Shown: piece after piece, positions 9,716 to 18,922 of the stretch
Layout of the letters: each line of letters begins with the position of its first letter
Position numbering within the stretch: position 1 is the stretch's first letter
From: Candidatus Hydrogenedentota bacterium
GTDB lineage: Bacteria > Hydrogenedentota > Hydrogenedentia > Hydrogenedentales > JAGMZX01
Direction of reading: 5' to 3'
Length of the DNA: 34,116 bases
Assembly: GCA_018005585.1 (NCBI GenBank)
Contig: JAGMZX010000046.1
Span: forward strand, 4,689 to 38,804
The notes under the pieces: model-generated
Told to the model about the DNA's origin: nothing
Databases searched by the model: none
The model's input: the letters and a program-made list of their open reading frames with translations, nothing else
Position numbers and translations under genes: made by a program

Positions 9716-12676
9716 TCATTCCTTTCCCAAGCCGGGGCAGAAGCCGTCTTCGGTCGGCGGGTCGGCGTCCGGGCAGGCATAGTAACCGCCGGCATTGTAG
9801 AACTGGAAGAGGCGAAACAGTTCCGTCAAGCCAATGGACCAGTCAGGACCGCCGCTGTAGTCACTGTCATGGGGACAACAAGCCCGGTCATCGCCGGGGC
9901 CGGGCGCGTAACCGTCCTCCGTATCTCCGGATGGGTCCGCACAGTGAAAACCATGAGAGTTGTACAATTGAATAACCCGCAACAATTCGATCAAAAGAAT
10001 CCGGTTGTCATGGTCCCGGTCGGCTGTATGCCATCCGCCCGCGCACGCATCGCCTTCTCCCTCTCCTTCTCCCTCTCCTTCTCCCTCTCCTTCTCCCTCT
10101 TCTTCTCCCTCTCCTTCGCCCGGCAGCGATTCGAGCACGGTTACGGTGCGTTCTGTAGACGCCCAGTTCCCAGCCTCGTCCCGCGCGGTATAACGGAGCG
10201 AATAGGTGCCCGGCGTGCCCGTATCCACGCCGCCAGTGATGCTCACGAAAACGTCATCATCACATGCGTCCCGCGCGGTCGCACCCCACTCGATATAGGG
10301 TGTCCCCTCGTATAGCGTCATGTGCGCGTCACCGAGCAGGGTGATCTCGGGAGGCTCCGTATCCACCACGCGCACAAGCCGGACAGATTCGGCGGCGTTC
10401 CCACTTGCATCCATTGCCGTATACGCGACAACGAATTCCCCCGCATGGCCGGTATCCACGTCGCCCGGTCCGATCGAAGCAACCACTAGCACATCAGGGT
10501 CGCAAGCGTCGACACTCACGGCGCCCGGGTCCACGAATGGTTTGCCACACGAAACCCAGAACTCCGCCCCGCCCAGGAGTTCGATGACTGGCGGTTGCGT
10601 ATCCGCAATGCGTACCAGCCTCTTAACGGGCACAGCCGCGTTGCCGAAGGCATCGACCGCGTCGTAGGTCACCACATATTCGCCCGGAACACCAAGCTCA
10701 ATCGCACCCGTTACCTCGACAGCGACGTCGTCGTCACACTCGTCCGAGGCGACTCCGCCGGGATCATCGAAGAGCGAACCGCATTCTACGTCTATCTCCG
10801 GGGCGCCGATCAGCACGATTTCGGGTGGCGTCCTGTCGACAACCGTAACAAGCCGCACGGCTTCCAGCGCGGCGAAACCGGAACCGTCGGTAACGTTATA
10901 CGTGCGGACATACGCCTCCGGCGTCTGCGTGTCCACCGCATCGCCGCCGTAGATGATGTTGGCCGAAATATCCCCGTCGCAGGCATCGTAAGCCAAGGCG
11001 CCGGGCTCCAGGAACACGCTGCCGCAGGAGACGTCCAGCGTTCCGCTTCCAGCCAGGATTATCACGGGCGGCTGACTGTCCGACACCCGCACCATCCGCG
11101 TGGTTTCGACAAGTTGCCCCTCGTGCTGCAGCGGATTCCCCTCTCCGTCCAAGGCAGTGTACGTCAGCACGTAAGCGCCTGTCTGGGGAGCAACGGCAAT
11201 TTCACCGGTGTTCTGCGTGCTTAAAGGGACAAGCCCCACGTCGAAGGCAAGGACGCCGGGGTCAAGAAACACTTCGCCGCATTCGGCGTCCAGACTCGAC
11301 GGGCCGCGCAATTGAATACACGGTTCGTAAGGCGTAGGCAAACCCCGCAAGGTGGGATAGGTCCGGTCCTCGCGAATCTTCCACACCGAATCGAAATTCC
11401 ATCCCGCCGATTCGAAGGTCGCGCGCCGCTTCATGTCGGCGGTCGATTTTCCCGTGCCACCGCCCGAAGTCGCCATGCCCGAGGTCTCGATGTCCCAGAA
11501 ACAGGCCCGGACCGTACCGTAACTGTGGCCGATAAACCCGCCGAGCGTGCCGCTGCCCGTAACGAGGCCCGTGGAGTAACACCGCGACGCAGGGTCAAGC
11601 ATGGTGATACCGAGGCCGCCGCCCGCCAAGTCCGCGCCGGCCACGGGCCCCGTGGCGAAGCAGTTCTCCGTCAGCGCCTGGTCGTTGTGGCCCACGATTC
11701 CGCCCGTTAACGGTGCGCCAAGGGCTTCAACACTGCCGATGGCGAAGCAGCGCCTGACGACACCAAAATTGCGGCCAACCAACCCACCCGTATTCGCTCC
11801 GTCCGATACGTTGCGAACCGCAACGGCCGTCCAACATCCGGAGACCTCGCCCCAATTCGTGCCGGCCAGCCCGCCCACATTGCCTGTGCCCGTGACTTTG
11901 CCCGCGGCAAAGCAATCGGTCACCGAGTGCACCGTGTGCCCGATCAGACCGCCGGCGGAAATGAGGCCGGTTACGTCCGCCCAAGCGCCGCACGTGCTGA
12001 AATGAATGTTGTCTCTAGCATTGCCGGCGAGTCCCCCCGTGCCATTCCGTCCCTGGACGCTGCCGATGGCCATGCAATAGACGACATGTCCGCTCCCTTC
12101 CGACCAGCCCACGAGCCCCCCTGTATAGTCGCCCCCCGCCACGCGCATGTTCACCTCGCAAAACGCCGTCATTCCCCCGCGGTGCCCCCCTGCAAGACCG
12201 CCTGCACAACCTGCTTGCGCGTCCAACGTGCCAGAAACGAAACATCCGGTCACGGCGCCCCCGTTGTTGAATCCCACGAGTCCGCCTACCCAGCTTCGAC
12301 CGTGGATACTGACGCCTTCGAGACGCAGCAGACTTATCCGGCCCGCGGCGCCCAGTCCTGCAAACAAGCCTACGTAATCTTCCTCCGGACGATTGATGGT
12401 CAACCCAGTGATTACGTGACCCCTGCCATCAAAGCTTCCTTGGAACCCTGCGGAGGCATCGGCGGCCGCATACGCGCCAATCGGGTCGAAACCCTCTCCC
12501 CCGTTCCACGCAGCCGTATTCGATGCGTCAATATTCTGCGTCAGCGTATAGTGACCGTCGAGCGGATACGCCGAATCGGTCCCGATCAATGCGAGTTGCT
12601 CGACACTGTTAATCTCGATGCCGTCTCCAACTCCGACAGCCGCCGCGAGACCAACAATCCACACCGCCGCGAACAT
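9716..12676 (-). CDS. Large secreted GLUG-repeat / Ig-like protein with Glu-Gly linker and EF-hand-like C-terminus
   Basis: A 986-aa surface or secreted protein. After a short signal-like segment (about 1-18), residues ~20-455 form repeated beta-solenoid GLUG units (patterns such as 'GGLVGxN.G.VxxCFaxG'). Residues ~460-855 hold five copies of a ~75-aa Ig-like HYR/DUF5011 domain, most starting 'PPxIxLxG' with 'Cg..f.dPG' and 'Y..TDGsG/DasGN'. A (GE)n linker (about 855-877) then precedes a 109-aa Cys-rich tail with two EF-hand/dockerin-like repeats containing ELLRVIQLYN and ELFRLFQFYN. The ATG at 12676 has GAGGAG upstream, and an upstream in-frame start lacks a signal. Likely an adhesin or cell-surface structural protein; the tail could bind calcium or anchor to the envelope. 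Confidence 0.85.
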   Translation of the reverse strand: MFAAVWIVGLAAAVGVGDGIEINSVEQLALIGTDSAYPLDGHYTLTQNIDASNTAAWNGGEGFDPIGAYAAADASAGFQGSFDGRGHVITGLTINRPEEDYVGLFAGLGAAGRISLLRLEGVSIHGRSWVGGLVGFNNGGAVTGCFVSGTLDAQAGCAGGLAGGHRGGMTAFCEVNMRVAGGDYTGGLVGWSEGSGHVVYCMAIGSVQGRNGTGGLAGNARDNIHFSTCGAWADVTGLISAGGLIGHTVHSVTDCFAAGKVTGTGNVGGLAGTNWGEVSGCWTAVAVRNVSDGANTGGLVGRNFGVVRRCFAIGSVEALGAPLTGGIVGHNDQALTENCFATGPVAGADLAGGGLGITMLDPASRCYSTGLVTGSGTLGGFIGHSYGTVRACFWDIETSGMATSGGGTGKSTADMKRRATFESAGWNFDSVWKIREDRTYPTLRGLPTPYEPCIQLRGPSSLDAECGEVFLDPGVLAFDVGLVPLSTQNTGEIAVAPQTGAYVLTYTALDGEGNPLQHEGQLVETTRMVRVSDSQPPVIILAGSGTLDVSCGSVFLEPGALAYDACDGDISANIIYGGDAVDTQTPEAYVRTYNVTDGSGFAALEAVRLVTVVDRTPPEIVLIGAPEIDVECGSLFDDPGGVASDECDDDVAVEVTGAIELGVPGEYVVTYDAVDAFGNAAVPVKRLVRIADTQPPVIELLGGAEFWVSCGKPFVDPGAVSVDACDPDVLVVASIGPGDVDTGHAGEFVVAYTAMDASGNAAESVRLVRVVDTEPPEITLLGDAHMTLYEGTPYIEWGATARDACDDDVFVSITGGVDTGTPGTYSLRYTARDEAGNWASTERTVTVLESLPGEGEGEEEGEGEGEGEGEGEGEGDACAGGWHTADRDHDNRILLIELLRVIQLYNSHGFHCADPSGDTEDGYAPGPGDDRACCPHDSDYSGGPDWSIGLTELFRLFQFYNAGGYYACPDADPPTEDGFCPGLGKE
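10053..10120. repeat. Low-complexity CTCCTTCTCCCT tract coding a (Glu-Gly)n linker
   Basis: About 68 bases of pyrimidine-rich, roughly 12-base units on the + strand. On the coding (minus) strand they read alternating GAG/GAA and GGx codons. Slippage could change the linker length between strains. Confidence 0.85.
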
Positions 12677-12916
12677 GGCCGTATTCTCCTCGCGTTGCAG
12701 CCGCGAACGGCAGGAGGAAGCGCTGCCTGCGCACTCCGCTGACTCTGAGCCGCGCCTGCCAGCCGAGACCACTGCCGACAAAGTCTAGTATACCCTCGAA
12801 GATAGCCATCCGCACGTCCTGTTGCCATGCTGTCTTCCCAGCGTCTCGCATTTCCGGTGCCGAAGCTGACACAATACAACCACATTCTGAAACTCCGTGG
12901 CGGAAAGGACAGGGTC

Positions 12917-14341: not shown

Positions 14342-14370
14342 GGCGGCACCACCACCGTGAGGTGCAGGTC

Positions 14371-14787
14371 ATGGCGTGGCTGCGCAGTTGGATCTACGGC
14401 GTGTTTTGCCGCGCGGGCGGCACAACCTTGGAGACCCTGAACGTGATGGAAATAACGACCCTGGAAGCATTGCGGGCGGCTTTGGAGAAGACGGGCTCCG
14501 GCGTGGCCGCGATTTTCAAGCACAGCACACGCTGTCCCATTTCCGCCGCCGCGTACCGTGAGGTAACCGCGTACCTGGAGAAAGCCGGACCCGACGCCCC
14601 GCCGTTCTATCTGGTCAAGGTTATCGAGTCCCGCCCGGTTTCTAACGAGGCCGCCGCACGCCTGGGAGTTGCCCATCAGTCCCCGCAAGTCATCCTGCTG
14701 AGTGGCGGACAGCCGTACTGGAATGCATCCCATGGCGGGATTACCGCCGCCGCGATTTCCGGAGCGGTCGATAAGTTAAGACATTGA
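14371..14787 (+). CDS. ytxJ: Monothiol bacilliredoxin BrxC/YtxJ family
   Basis: A 138-aa thioredoxin-fold protein of the BrxC/YtxJ family, which in Firmicutes and Bacteroidota reduces bacillithiol-mixed disulfides. The hallmark is FKHSTRCPIS (49-58), with Cys55 as the single active cysteine, followed by ESRPVSN and the cis-Pro loop HQSPQVILL. Later WNASHGGIT matches the conserved 'W..SH..IT' of the family. Start choice: the ATG at 14371 follows GAGGTGCAG and gives an N-terminal extension such as many Bacteroidota homologues have; an ATG at 14446 (or GTG at 14443) with GGAG upstream would give the ~113-aa core. It lies 29 bases after the ceramidase-like gene and is probably co-transcribed. The presence of this family hints that the organism makes bacillithiol. 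Confidence 0.85.
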   Translation: MAWLRSWIYGVFCRAGGTTLETLNVMEITTLEALRAALEKTGSGVAAIFKHSTRCPISAAAYREVTAYLEKAGPDAPPFYLVKVIESRPVSNEAAARLGVAHQSPQVILLSGGQPYWNASHGGITAAAISGAVDKLRH

Positions 14788-14820: not shown

Positions 14821-14848
14821 TTGCATTTTCAAGAGAATATGGTACAAT
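14821..14848 (+). promoter_or_regulatory. Extended -10 promoter for the RNA candidate
   Basis: TTGCAT (14821-14826), 16-base spacer, TACAAT (14843-14848) with TG at 14840-14841 (extended -10). The region just upstream is unusually AT-rich for this window. No protein-coding gene follows on this strand before the convergent gene end at 15029. Confidence 0.5.
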
Positions 14849-14854
14849 ATGGGT

Positions 14855-15016
14855 GAGCACAGGCTTCGGCCCCCGACAGTTGAGGTGAACACACACTCAT
14901 AGACGATCATTCTCCAACCCCTCGTTCATACTGCCTTTCATCTCTCTGTGCCTCCTGTCGGGGGCATCTTCTTTTTTGAGGCTGGTTGGAGGACAGTTCG
15001 GCGTCTCGTTACGCCG
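14855..15016 (+). ncRNA. Candidate structured small RNA with two crossing stems
   Basis: Downstream of the promoter at 14821-14848 the sequence holds several complementary segments. Stem A pairs GCCCCCGACAG (14869-14879) with CTGTCGGGGGC (14955-14965), extended by GAGG/CCTC (14882-14885 with 14951-14954). Stem A is followed by ATCTTCTTTTTT. Stem B pairs CTCCAACC plus CCTC (14912-14923) with GAGG, a two-base bulge, and GGTTGGAG (14978-14991). The order A-B-A'-B' means a pseudoknot, or two mutually exclusive folds. A GGC-TTCG-GCC mini-hairpin (14862-14871) overlaps stem A. The 3' end could be the T-run at 14977 or the hairpin at 14999-15016. No good ORF explains the region. I do not match it to SRP RNA (no GGAAG loop), tmRNA or a known riboswitch. 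Confidence 0.45.
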
Positions 15017-15020
15017 TTTT
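14999..15020 (+). terminator. Hairpin CGGCGT-CTCGTT-ACGCCG followed by TTTT
   Basis: Six-base perfect GC-rich stem, six-base loop, then TTTTCC. It could end the small-RNA transcript on the + strand. The stem also lies just past the stop of the leftward lipoprotein gene, but no T-run follows on that strand. Confidence 0.4.
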
Positions 15021-15028
15021 CCTGGTCC

Positions 15029-18000
15029 TCACCACGTCCGCTGTACCACCCGGAATACGGCCTGCCCCGCCGTGCCGGACAGCAGGTCGCGCGCCGTAGC
15101 CACGTAATGGCCTGTGCGTTCGTTGCGCGCAAGCGGGATGAAACCCTCGCCCCGGCCCCCTTCGCACCGGACGTTTACCGCGTAATACTTGAGTTCCTCC
15201 CCCTGCATGGTCTCGAGCGTCACCCGGACCAGATGGGTTCCGCACACGCCGCCCCGCGCTTTCACGCGAATCTGAAACACCAGCCGTTCCCCCTGCGCCA
15301 CGGTATCGGCCGCGATGAGTTCCAGCGCCCCCACCTCGTAAGGCAACCGGGCAAACAGCGCCGCCTCGCCGCGCCCGAGATGGAACCGCGCGCGCCTTCC
15401 AGGAACGGGCAGACGCGCCAGCAGGTCATAGACCGTATCACCCTTCTCGAAATCGAGGCGCACGGTCATCTCTTCCGGTCCGGAGTCCGGCGCGCGCACG
15501 GCCAGCAGCAAGTCTGCATCTCCGAAACGGTATCGGCGCCGCTCGCCGGGCAGCCACCCATCCTCCGGGACGGCAAGCGCTACGTCCGGCGCGATACCCG
15601 CATCAGCAAGCGCCTGACGCAGAAGCGCGTACACGCCATGCGTCAACGCCGGGTCGCCGTCCTCCGCCACAGCGGGAAACGGGTGGTTCAAGACAAGCCG
15701 AATACCCTGGGGCGTATCCAGCCGCAGCCAAATGGGCACATCGCCCGCCGCGCTTCCCGCCCGCGCCGTAACCGCAGCCAGCCGCGCGTCGGCAACGGTC
15801 CTGCCTGTGGCGGGGCCCGCCGGCTCCCGCCCGGGAACGGCCACGGGCGCGGCAGCGGGTTCCGGCGGGATGGCGTTCGGCGCGTACTTCACGCCGAACA
15901 AATCCGCCAGCGGTGGCGCGTCCCGTTCCACGCCGTGCGCATCCAGAACGCCGGGCAGCAGGTCCGCAATCACGTGCCCCCCTCGTTCCGCGAAGCCGGT
16001 TATGGCTTCGACTTCCTTGCCGTCAAGCGCCCGCGCCATGGGCAAGACCAGCAGCGCGTACGCCGCGAGCCCGTCTGCCGTCGCGTCCTCCCCCGCGATG
16101 ATATCGAAACCGACGCCCGAACCCTCCAGGAAACAGATAATCCGCTGCTGCGCGTCGTTGTACCGCGCGCCACAATCCGGCCCGGCAGCGTCGCAATACA
16201 GGCTGGCGCGCGAATCGTAGACGGCCACGCGCGCCTGCGCCGGAACCGCGCTCAGCAGCAGCGTGTCCAGTCCTTCGCCTACCGTGTCATACGCGGCGGA
16301 AAAGGCATCGAAAAACGCGGCGGGCCGTCCGTCCGGCAACAGCGCCGCCTGCGGCGCCCCGTGAAACGCATTGCCGAACGGCTCCAGAAACCAGACGCCA
16401 TCGCAGCCGTTTGCGGCCGCGTGCCACGGCAACCAGCGCGCGCGCTCCGGCGACAACGGCGCATCCCCGTTGATTGCCAGCGCGAACCGCCCGCCCGTCT
16501 TCCCAAAGGAACGCAGTTTGGCTTCCAGCGCCGCGTCCGGGCTCACGGCGATCCAGTCCATGGCGCGCGCCAGCGCAGCCCAGTGATAGCCTCGCATGCA
16601 GGGGTCGTCCTGCCGTGCTCGGAAACCTGTCCGGGCCTGTGCATCGGCCCCGAGTATGGCATCGCGCATGACGTTCATGTAGGCGCTGAAGACGCCGTCC
16701 ATGAACATTCGAAAATCGGCCCACGATGCGGGATGTCCGGAATGTAACGCCTCCTCCCGGGGGGACGGTCGCACTTCCACCCATTCGGCAAAACCCGTGC
16801 CCCAGGCACTGTTCAGGCCCTCAAGCCCGCCGTAGCCCTCCTTGAGCCGCGCCCGAAACGCGTCCAGACAATGCGCGCACTGACAGATATTCTCGTCGCT
16901 CGCGCACAGATAGGCGGGGTTCCCCAGCGAGTAGTCCAGCACGCCGTCCCCGCGATAGCGCTGCACGGCTTCCGTCACACGCTTGCTCTCAATCGCAGTG
17001 TGGCTCGGGTCGCTTAAACAGGGAACGCGCACCAGTCCTTCCTCCGCCCGCTCCGCGGCAACGTGTCCCGCCGCCGCGATGGGCCGCAGGTTCATGCGCG
17101 TCAGGTGCCGGTGCGCGGCCGCGCCCGCCTCCGTATAGACAGAGTCAAACCCGGCGTGCGCCAGCGCGTCCAGCAGATGCCGCGCGTTGTATTCGTAGGC
17201 GTTCGGCGTCACGGCCGTCAGATGCAGCTTGTGCGGCAGCCGCGCCTGCCGCACGGGAAGCACGCGCACCTCCGCCGCCGCCATGTTCAACTCCCAATCT
17301 TCGAAGGTGTGCATTTCACCGGGCACGGCGTACACCTCGACGCGCACACTCGGCGTGATCAGGTCGGCAAACGGAAGCGACAACACGACTTCGCCGCCGC
17401 CTTCGGGCGCCGGCATGGCGCTATCCGCCACGAGCCGCCCCACTGCGTCTATGGCGCGCGCATAGATTGCCAAAGGGCGCGCCGCCCCATAGAAAGTCTG
17501 CGTCTCCAGCGCGATTTCCAGGTTGTCGTGGGGTAGCAGGATGGACTTGGAAAGACGCAGGTTCGTGAAAGAGGGCCAGCCCGTGACCTCGACCGGTTCC
17601 GTATGCCACAAAACGACGCCGCGCCGCCCGTGCAGCTGGATATCGAGCAAGTAGCGGCCGGGCCCGGCCAGCACCTCCGCGGTATAGCTGTCCGCGCCTT
17701 TTTTCAATTCCGGCAAGTCGTCGTAGACCACACGCAAGCCGCGGTTCGGGTCGCGCAATTGCACGGTTACGCCGTAGTCCCGCTCCGCGGGCTCAGCAAA
17801 ACGGGCCTGAAATGTGCGAATGGGCGATTGTACCACCGTGTCGCGCATGGTCTGCACGAACTCCGGCGGCAGGTCCGGCGGGATTTCCTCCGGTGGCGGC
17901 CCCTGCGGCGCCATAGCAATCACCTGCGTTACGCGCATGACGGAATCACGGCCAGCAGCCCAACACACCGCGCGCGCAACAAGCGAGAAGTAGGAATCCA

Positions 18001-18712
18001 GAAACTCCGGCACGGCATGGACCGGATTGGCCAGCGCAGGCAGCAGGCAATGGGTTGCGGGCTTGTCCTCGCGAAACGGGAGCAACACGACGCGACCGTC
18101 GCCATAGGTGGCCGCCCGCACAAAGTCCAGTCCGCCGTGCCACTCGGGCGTAACGGACTCCCCTATGCCGCCGGTAATCGGACTGGTATCCTCCACCGGT
18201 TTGAGCGCTTCAAGAAACGTCTCGAAGACGATTCCCGCCGCTTCATCGTGATTGGCCAGCACCAGTCCCGCGCCCCCCGCTACCGCGCGGAACAAGACGC
18301 TTTGCGTTTCCACCGGCAGGGTGTTCAAATCGACATTACCCACAATGATGACGTCGAGCGGCTCCCGCAGCGCGCGGTCCAGCCGCGCCAGCACCTCACC
18401 GGCCGACGCGCCCGGCGCCTGTTCCTCGGCGAGACTCGCGTCACAGCCCGGATGGCCGCGGTCCCAAACACCGACAACTTCCAGGCTTAGTTCGAGCCGC
18501 TGCGACAGTTCCATTGCGTCCCGCAGCGTATAGCGCGGCGCGACGAGCAGGCCCCGGATGGGGCCGTCTTCCAACGGCTTGGCCCACAGCACGTGGGACG
18601 TCGCAAACGCGCCCTCGAAATCGAAAGCGGGCGCGTCGATACGTTCCTTGGCGCAAGCGTGACAGAGAACGCAAACGGAAAGCACAACCACCATGCGGCA
18701 AGACAACATCAT
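15029..18712 (-). CDS. Large GH42-like lipoprotein (beta-galactosidase-type barrel)
   Basis: A 1227-aa predicted lipoprotein. The signal ends in LCHAC with the lipid-carrying Cys20. Residues ~40-250 look like a Rossmann/GATase-type domain (PIRGLLVAP; DVIIVGNVD). About 300-490 appears to be beta-sandwich. About 495-830 resembles the GH42 beta-galactosidase barrel: 'DYSLGNPAYLCASDENICQC' followed by 'CLDAFRARLKEGYGGLEGLN' is the usual GH42 'Y..CxxC...F..WL...Y.s...LN..WGT' region. A GATase-like segment (about 870-970) matches the GH42 trimerisation domain, then a C-terminal beta domain. The catalytic Glu pair is not assigned, so activity is uncertain. The ATG at 18712 has GGAG upstream; longer frames would lack the signal. 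Probably binds or hydrolyses galactosidic glycans at the cell surface. Confidence 0.75.
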   Translation of the reverse strand: MMLSCRMVVVLSVCVLCHACAKERIDAPAFDFEGAFATSHVLWAKPLEDGPIRGLLVAPRYTLRDAMELSQRLELSLEVVGVWDRGHPGCDASLAEEQAPGASAGEVLARLDRALREPLDVIIVGNVDLNTLPVETQSVLFRAVAGGAGLVLANHDEAAGIVFETFLEALKPVEDTSPITGGIGESVTPEWHGGLDFVRAATYGDGRVVLLPFREDKPATHCLLPALANPVHAVPEFLDSYFSLVARAVCWAAGRDSVMRVTQVIAMAPQGPPPEEIPPDLPPEFVQTMRDTVVQSPIRTFQARFAEPAERDYGVTVQLRDPNRGLRVVYDDLPELKKGADSYTAEVLAGPGRYLLDIQLHGRRGVVLWHTEPVEVTGWPSFTNLRLSKSILLPHDNLEIALETQTFYGAARPLAIYARAIDAVGRLVADSAMPAPEGGGEVVLSLPFADLITPSVRVEVYAVPGEMHTFEDWELNMAAAEVRVLPVRQARLPHKLHLTAVTPNAYEYNARHLLDALAHAGFDSVYTEAGAAAHRHLTRMNLRPIAAAGHVAAERAEEGLVRVPCLSDPSHTAIESKRVTEAVQRYRGDGVLDYSLGNPAYLCASDENICQCAHCLDAFRARLKEGYGGLEGLNSAWGTGFAEWVEVRPSPREEALHSGHPASWADFRMFMDGVFSAYMNVMRDAILGADAQARTGFRARQDDPCMRGYHWAALARAMDWIAVSPDAALEAKLRSFGKTGGRFALAINGDAPLSPERARWLPWHAAANGCDGVWFLEPFGNAFHGAPQAALLPDGRPAAFFDAFSAAYDTVGEGLDTLLLSAVPAQARVAVYDSRASLYCDAAGPDCGARYNDAQQRIICFLEGSGVGFDIIAGEDATADGLAAYALLVLPMARALDGKEVEAITGFAERGGHVIADLLPGVLDAHGVERDAPPLADLFGVKYAPNAIPPEPAAAPVAVPGREPAGPATGRTVADARLAAVTARAGSAAGDVPIWLRLDTPQGIRLVLNHPFPAVAEDGDPALTHGVYALLRQALADAGIAPDVALAVPEDGWLPGERRRYRFGDADLLLAVRAPDSGPEEMTVRLDFEKGDTVYDLLARLPVPGRRARFHLGRGEAALFARLPYEVGALELIAADTVAQGERLVFQIRVKARGGVCGTHLVRVTLETMQGEELKYYAVNVRCEGGRGEGFIPLARNERTGHYVATARDLLSGTAGQAVFRVVQRTW

Positions 18713-18800
18713 GAAACCGCTCCAACCACCTGCGGACTTCGGAACCCGCGCATGAATGCCCTCAACCGGACCATGCAGCGGATATCCTTGCGTCGGGAAG

Positions 18801-18809
18801 AGTGTACCA
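18801..18809 (-). promoter_or_regulatory. Extended -10 candidate for the GH42-like gene
   Basis: The minus strand reads TGGTACACT: TG, one base, then TACACT. No convincing -35 was seen. It lies about 90 bases upstream of the ATG at 18712. Confidence 0.25.
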
Positions 18810-18856
18810 GAAATCCCTCTGCTCCCCGCATGCCATCGATCGCTTGGAGCTGCTCT

Positions 18857-18885
18857 TTGCCTGCACGTGGGAACCCGAGTATACT
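18857..18885 (+). promoter_or_regulatory. Sigma70-type promoter for the aldolase-sialidase operon
   Basis: TTGCCT (18857-18862), exactly 17 bases, TATACT (18880-18885). The predicted start near 18892 gives a ~31-base leader carrying the AAGGGAG ribosome site. Confidence 0.6.
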
Positions 18886-18922
18886 GCCGCATTCAAGGCT
18901 GCATACACAGAAAGGGAGCATC

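Follow-up and report, generated by a model that had tools for sequence, protein, structure and literature searches.

Does the stretch behind brxC in this genome encode an RNA of its own, and if so, what could its stems do? A sequence-only reading had proposed an orphan promoter here, driving an RNA with two long stems whose arms cross. The window, that is, the whole stretch of DNA analysed, comprises 34,116 nucleotides (G000:C46:4689-38804) of a 6.08 Mb genome (G000) from the Hydrogenedentota, an uncultured phylum. A full-text literature search returned no study of small RNAs in this phylum, going by titles and the starts of abstracts. The sole congener compared was G001, a Candidatus Hydrogenedentota metagenome-assembled genome (contig JAKQEQ010000106.1), and order-level and phylum-level searches covered an identical set of 68 genomes.

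The brxC flank and its features

The features of the region are as follows.

14362..14787, + strand: brxC, monothiol bacilliredoxin (PF11009, Pfam E 1.2e-29), directly upstream of the RNA
14821..14848, + strand: promoter, with a weak -35 TTGCAT (14821-14826), a 16-nt spacer and an extended -10 TGG-TACAAT (14840-14848)
14855..14977, + strand: small RNA gene, drawn from an inferred start near 14855, an end in the T-run and identity to G001
14869..14885, + strand: 5' arm of closing stem P1 (stem A), GCCCCCGACAG, bulge UU, GAGG
14886..14950, + strand: interior, conserved, C/U-rich and mostly unpaired
14948..14967, + strand: local 8-bp hairpin GUGCCUCC/GGGGGCAU, which vies with P1 for GGGGGC
14951..14965, + strand: 3' arm of closing stem P1 (stem A), CCUC CUGUCGGGGGC
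14968..14977, + strand: terminator T-run CTTCTTTTTT, at which conservation stops
14978..14991, + strand: 3' arm of stem B, past the T-run and outside the conserved RNA
14999..15016, + strand: third hairpin CGGCGT/ACGCCG followed by TTTT, a possible back-up terminator
15029-18892, - strand: next downstream gene, a large neighbour whose 1287-aa product carries glycoside hydrolase family 42 domains

The extended -10 promoter was present as proposed, with a poor -35, and its congener equivalent is in place at the same position (TTGATT / TGG-TATAAT); a strict sigma-70 scan did not call the window promoter. The roughly 160-base stretch was likewise found to be free of coding genes, since neither a coding gene nor a convincing ORF was found inside the RNA region, and a tRNA search inside 14821-15020 found none. 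Stem A had been described accurately, with 11 perfect pairs (14869-14879 with 14955-14965) and four more (14882-14885 with 14951-14954) before the T-rich run. Within its 3' arm, GGGGGC has two possible partners, GUGCCUCC in a local pairing (26-nt fold, -9.4 kcal/mol) and the 5' arm (-31.9 kcal/mol as a duplex), and the folding energy of the whole RNA was only modestly better than that of shuffles (z -1.5). The third hairpin with its TTTT was also there; in G001 a different hairpin precedes TTTTT at the matching place, as read by eye.

Between 14855 and 14975, the RNA was identical to its G001 copy at 117 of 121 positions (97%), whereas the neighbouring brxC agreed at 108/141 first, 117/141 second and 71/141 third codon positions, so that the RNA is more conserved than the adjoining protein gene. 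The match to G001 opens in the extended -10 promoter and closes at the T-run, past which the two genomes could barely be aligned. Stem P1 was invariant and the interior differed only at two adjacent bases, 14887-14888, this sequence conservation being seen in two closely related copies only (G000 and G001). Judged by this comparison, with 97% of bases identical here and 50% of third codon positions in brxC, the RNA is under very strong selection. The brxC gene stands beside the RNA in G001 as well, and the downstream genes there differ, so the neighbourhood is shared on the brxC side alone; 3' of the G001 copy (L008), the downstream gene of the window gives way to other genes, a tRNA gene (10522-10597) among them. 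Another large neighbour in the window (9716-12781, - strand) encodes a surface protein bearing Ig-like and GLUG repeats.

An exact 20-mer of the RNA matched only the congener contig JAKQEQ010000106.1 among 84,980 species genomes, and no counterpart was found in plasmids, phages or IMG/VR. Rfam, at the gathering threshold and at E<=10, gave no family for the RNA, the only matches being 6S and tRNA, both elsewhere; the routine terminator-only match that might have deflated the proposal did not appear. On the evidence of sequence, the RNA gene is genuine, undescribed and lineage-restricted, and the broader proposal, a promoter-driven, structured non-coding RNA that really does contain a long stem and ends in an intrinsic terminator, was supported. 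As the best explanation we favour, with moderate confidence, a small RNA gene of about 120 nt in the brxC 3' flank, with its own extended -10 promoter, most likely base-pairing with mRNAs.

Likely counterparts behind brxC in a second family

The DNA 3' of brxC was read at 48 loci of the phylum. The same arrangement was found in family f11, in all four genomes of genus g13 (G014, G026, G034 and G037) and in G020 (genus g18), in the order brxC, promoter (TTGACA or near it, plus a TGG-extended -10), non-coding RNA, T-run and a gene whose start, VEDD...CLDIMMP, reads like a response regulator. The five RNA loci are L023:1919-2087, L040:1871-2041, L041:1291-1461, L050:698-868 and L051:1503-1655; the three of them scanned with Rfam (L023, L040 and L041) gave no match. 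An RNA behind brxC was absent from the f11 genera of G030 and G040 and from most other families among the 48 loci. In genus g10 (L029 and L042), a promoter behind brxC is followed by a leader that is rich in GC and looks structured (TGACTCGGTGAAGGGCGAAATCCCCGGAAA...) and then by the next gene, and Rfam gave no match for these leaders.

In each f11 RNA, a stem of 16-20 bp connects the 5' part with the bases ahead of the T-run. The closing stems differ in sequence between lineages, and the arms are complementary within each genome: own-arm duplexes ranged from -26.9 to -33.1 kcal/mol, and arms taken from different genera gave mostly -10 to -24, the exceptions (down to -32.6 kcal/mol) being pairs within genus g13. 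In a MAFFT alignment of the seven sequences 84.3% of cells pair, a count that is probably conservative because three of the seven rows are one base off register by the duplex reading. The covariation score of 0.376, of a kind that kinship among sequences can inflate, was unreached in 500 shuffles and fell at all six slides. Covariation had been suggested as a check on the stems, and for stem A the long-range pairing indeed persists in probable relatives even though the sequence has changed.

A strict scan of 266 kb of these loci, on both strands, for long-range stems ending at a T-run returned 14 matches at or below -25 kcal/mol, and every match at or below -30 kcal/mol was one of the brxC-linked RNAs. 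Its T-run pattern skipped the G000 copy, which reached -34.2 in a looser scan; that loose scan for long-range terminator stems gave 116 matches in GC-rich DNA and was uninformative. The local terminator hairpins of the f11 RNAs were weak (-2.4 to -7.8 kcal/mol) and the long-range stem was strong, which suggests that in these RNAs the stem of the terminator is probably P1 itself.

Covariance models gave no significant bridge between the two families. Model R2, built from the genus g13 RNAs, found only the four g13 genomes over the phylum; on 41 kb it gave G020 14.2 bits (E 0.049), in another register, and G001 and G000 8.6 and 5.9 bits (E 1.1 and 4.8), and model R1 scored G014 at 7.8 bits (E 2.1). 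These weak cross-family matches do sit on RNAs behind brxC. From synteny, architecture and the arm-swap covariation, we infer that the RNAs of the two families are likely homologous, with convergence as the alternative. Two other weak R1 matches over the phylum were set aside as coincidence. One, in G045 (L011, GCCCCCGGCAGATTGAGGT..TGCCTCCCGCCGGGGGCACTTTTTTTT), follows directly on an unrelated gene, as a common terminator would, and the other, L043 in G016, was treated likewise. L011:1501-1564 has GCCCCCGRCAG..TTGAGGT and TGCCTCCYGYCGGGGGCA in common with the window RNA (R1 E 0.0014, one genome), which is probably coincidence.

A more far-reaching and tentative possibility, which we regard as rather less probable than the small RNA gene itself, is a brxC-linked family ancestral to at least two Hydrogenedentota families, in which the RNA would be one terminator hairpin with a functional loop of about 65 bases, forming an RNA arm of thiol homeostasis. 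If this were true, sequence would turn over by lineage, and what persists would be an RNA architecture that closes and terminates itself, together with the link to a thiol-redox gene. The brxC linkage in two families offers a concrete starting point for testing whether RNA regulates thiol homeostasis, and the lineage-specific closing stems show a structured RNA overlooked by current family libraries and single-family models.

The linkage also bears on the reading that the region mainly serves brxC as its 3' UTR and terminator, protecting or regulating that mRNA, with no independent RNA. The RNA lies on the brxC strand, 67 bases past the stop codon, and no terminator was found between the two, so that read-through mRNA from brxC would probably end at the same terminator as the RNA; the neighbourhood with brxC is moreover kept in two families. 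However, a promoter stands at the equivalent place ahead of all seven RNAs, with an extended -10 in both congeners and in the five further genomes (the other-family promoter reads TTGACA..TGG-CATTAT), and the conservation far exceeds the needs of a terminator. We therefore consider it unlikely that the region is only a brxC 3' UTR.

6S-like, switch and peptide readings

In having a closing stem, a large open centre, a similar size and its own promoter, the RNA resembles 6S RNA (RF00013), and it might be another RNA of the 6S type, with RNA polymerase bound by an open rod whose ends are closed. Unlike 6S RNA, it obtained no Rfam 6S score, with no match even at E<=10, and its C/U-rich interior has no clear central-bubble layout. 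A true 6S scored above the cut-off elsewhere in G000, and also in G001, G014, G020 and G026. With the true 6S elsewhere in the genome and no model match, 6S was dropped as the leading idea, and we regard it as very unlikely.

Stem B does exist in G000, with a core of 14912-14919/14984-14991 extended by CCTC/GAGG, and its arms cross those of stem A in the order reported. The claim that two such stems are beyond chance stood in part. For stem A it held, as a perfect inverted repeat of at least 11 occurred in 0/1000 dinucleotide shuffles of the 200-base region. For stem B it did not: a repeat of at least 8 was present in 172 of 1000 shuffles (two such repeats in 7/1000), and in the congener stem B was no stronger than shuffles. 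Base-pairing between the interior and the downstream 40 bases beat 494/500 shuffles in G000 but only 283/500 in G001 (217/500 doing as well, i.e., shuffle level), and it was unremarkable in four other-family RNAs (G026, G014, G034 and G020), the G037 row being ignored for a wrongly chosen T-run. Since G001 retains a 7-bp remnant, CAACCCC/GGGGTTG, itself at shuffle level, stem B is unsupported rather than absent.

The order of the arms had been taken to force a pseudoknot or a terminator/anti-terminator switch controlling what lies downstream, and the crossing stems and the strong interior-downstream pairing of G000 are what speak for it. But the 3' arm of stem B is transcribed after the T-run and so cannot prevent termination at stem A, and a transcript ending at stem A never includes it. 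The two stems use different bases and are thus not alternatives, and no mutually exclusive helices with an anti-terminator ahead of the terminator were found. The next gene (15029-18892) is on the opposite strand, leaving no same-strand downstream gene to be regulated and nothing obvious to switch. A switch or pseudoknot of this kind is highly improbable.

A very short peptide at the RNA 5' end (frame STGFGPRQLR-stop) is scarcely credible either: the congener differences in this stretch leave the reading frame intact (Phe from both TTC and TTT, a stop from both TGA and TAG), but its GTG start lies no later than the inferred transcription start and is missing in the congener, it has no ribosome-binding site, and the equally conserved 80 bases past its stop would be left unexplained, so the leader-peptide reading was judged unlikely.

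Candidate mode of action and known systems

In the favoured reading as a small RNA gene, a transcript of about 120 nt would start near 14855 and end at the T-run of the intrinsic terminator that closes the conserved block. P1 would join the 5' part of the RNA to the bases before the T-run, and the closed ends may confer stability. The approximately 65 mostly unpaired C/U-rich bases between the P1 arms would be exposed, almost invariant between the two congeners. The conserved interior sequence is CUCAUAGACGAUCAUUCUCCAACCCCUCGUUCAUACUGCCUUUCAUCUCUC, in which folding allows a possible small hairpin, GACGA/UCGUU (14902-14906/14922-14926), with loop UCAUUCUCCAACCCC. Rich in C and U, the interior has a complement reminiscent of ribosome-binding sites, suggesting that these conserved bases may pair with mRNAs. 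Transcription, base-pairing action in trans and a tie to brxC function in thiol/redox stress are what we infer for this RNA.

Target searches gave isolated matches at two start regions in G000, and no target match with up to 2 mismatches was common to G000 and G001. At L087 (G000:C26:15692-15707, - strand), a gapA-like gene has a ribosome-binding region, MATKVGINGFGRIG, that agrees with the complement of RNA 14925-14940 except for 2 mismatches; this duplex was better than 293/300 shuffles, uncorrected for the number of sites examined. A similar match was seen at another start codon (L088).

Two groups of known RNAs invite comparison. EsrE, at the yigP locus, is described as an sRNA in an mRNA 3' region with its own promoter and a shared terminator (PMC5581919), and related 3' UTR-derived sRNAs have also been described (PMC7398697). 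The RNA studied here is like them in lying behind a coding gene, with an internal promoter and a terminator that could serve both transcripts; they come from enterobacteria and relatives, and have no known sequence relation to it. In Firmicutes, C-rich or UCCC-type sRNAs, such as LhrC (PMC4132741) and S. aureus RNAs (PMC9217828), pair with Shine-Dalgarno sequences. Those sRNAs belong to a different phylum, with no sequence relation established, and the RNA here is single copy, with candidate pairing only. By analogy of working, its exposed C/U-rich stretches (CUCCAACCCC, CCUCC) could pair with ribosome-binding sites in a similar way, which suggests mRNA base-pairing like that of the C-rich sRNAs as a works-like comparison.
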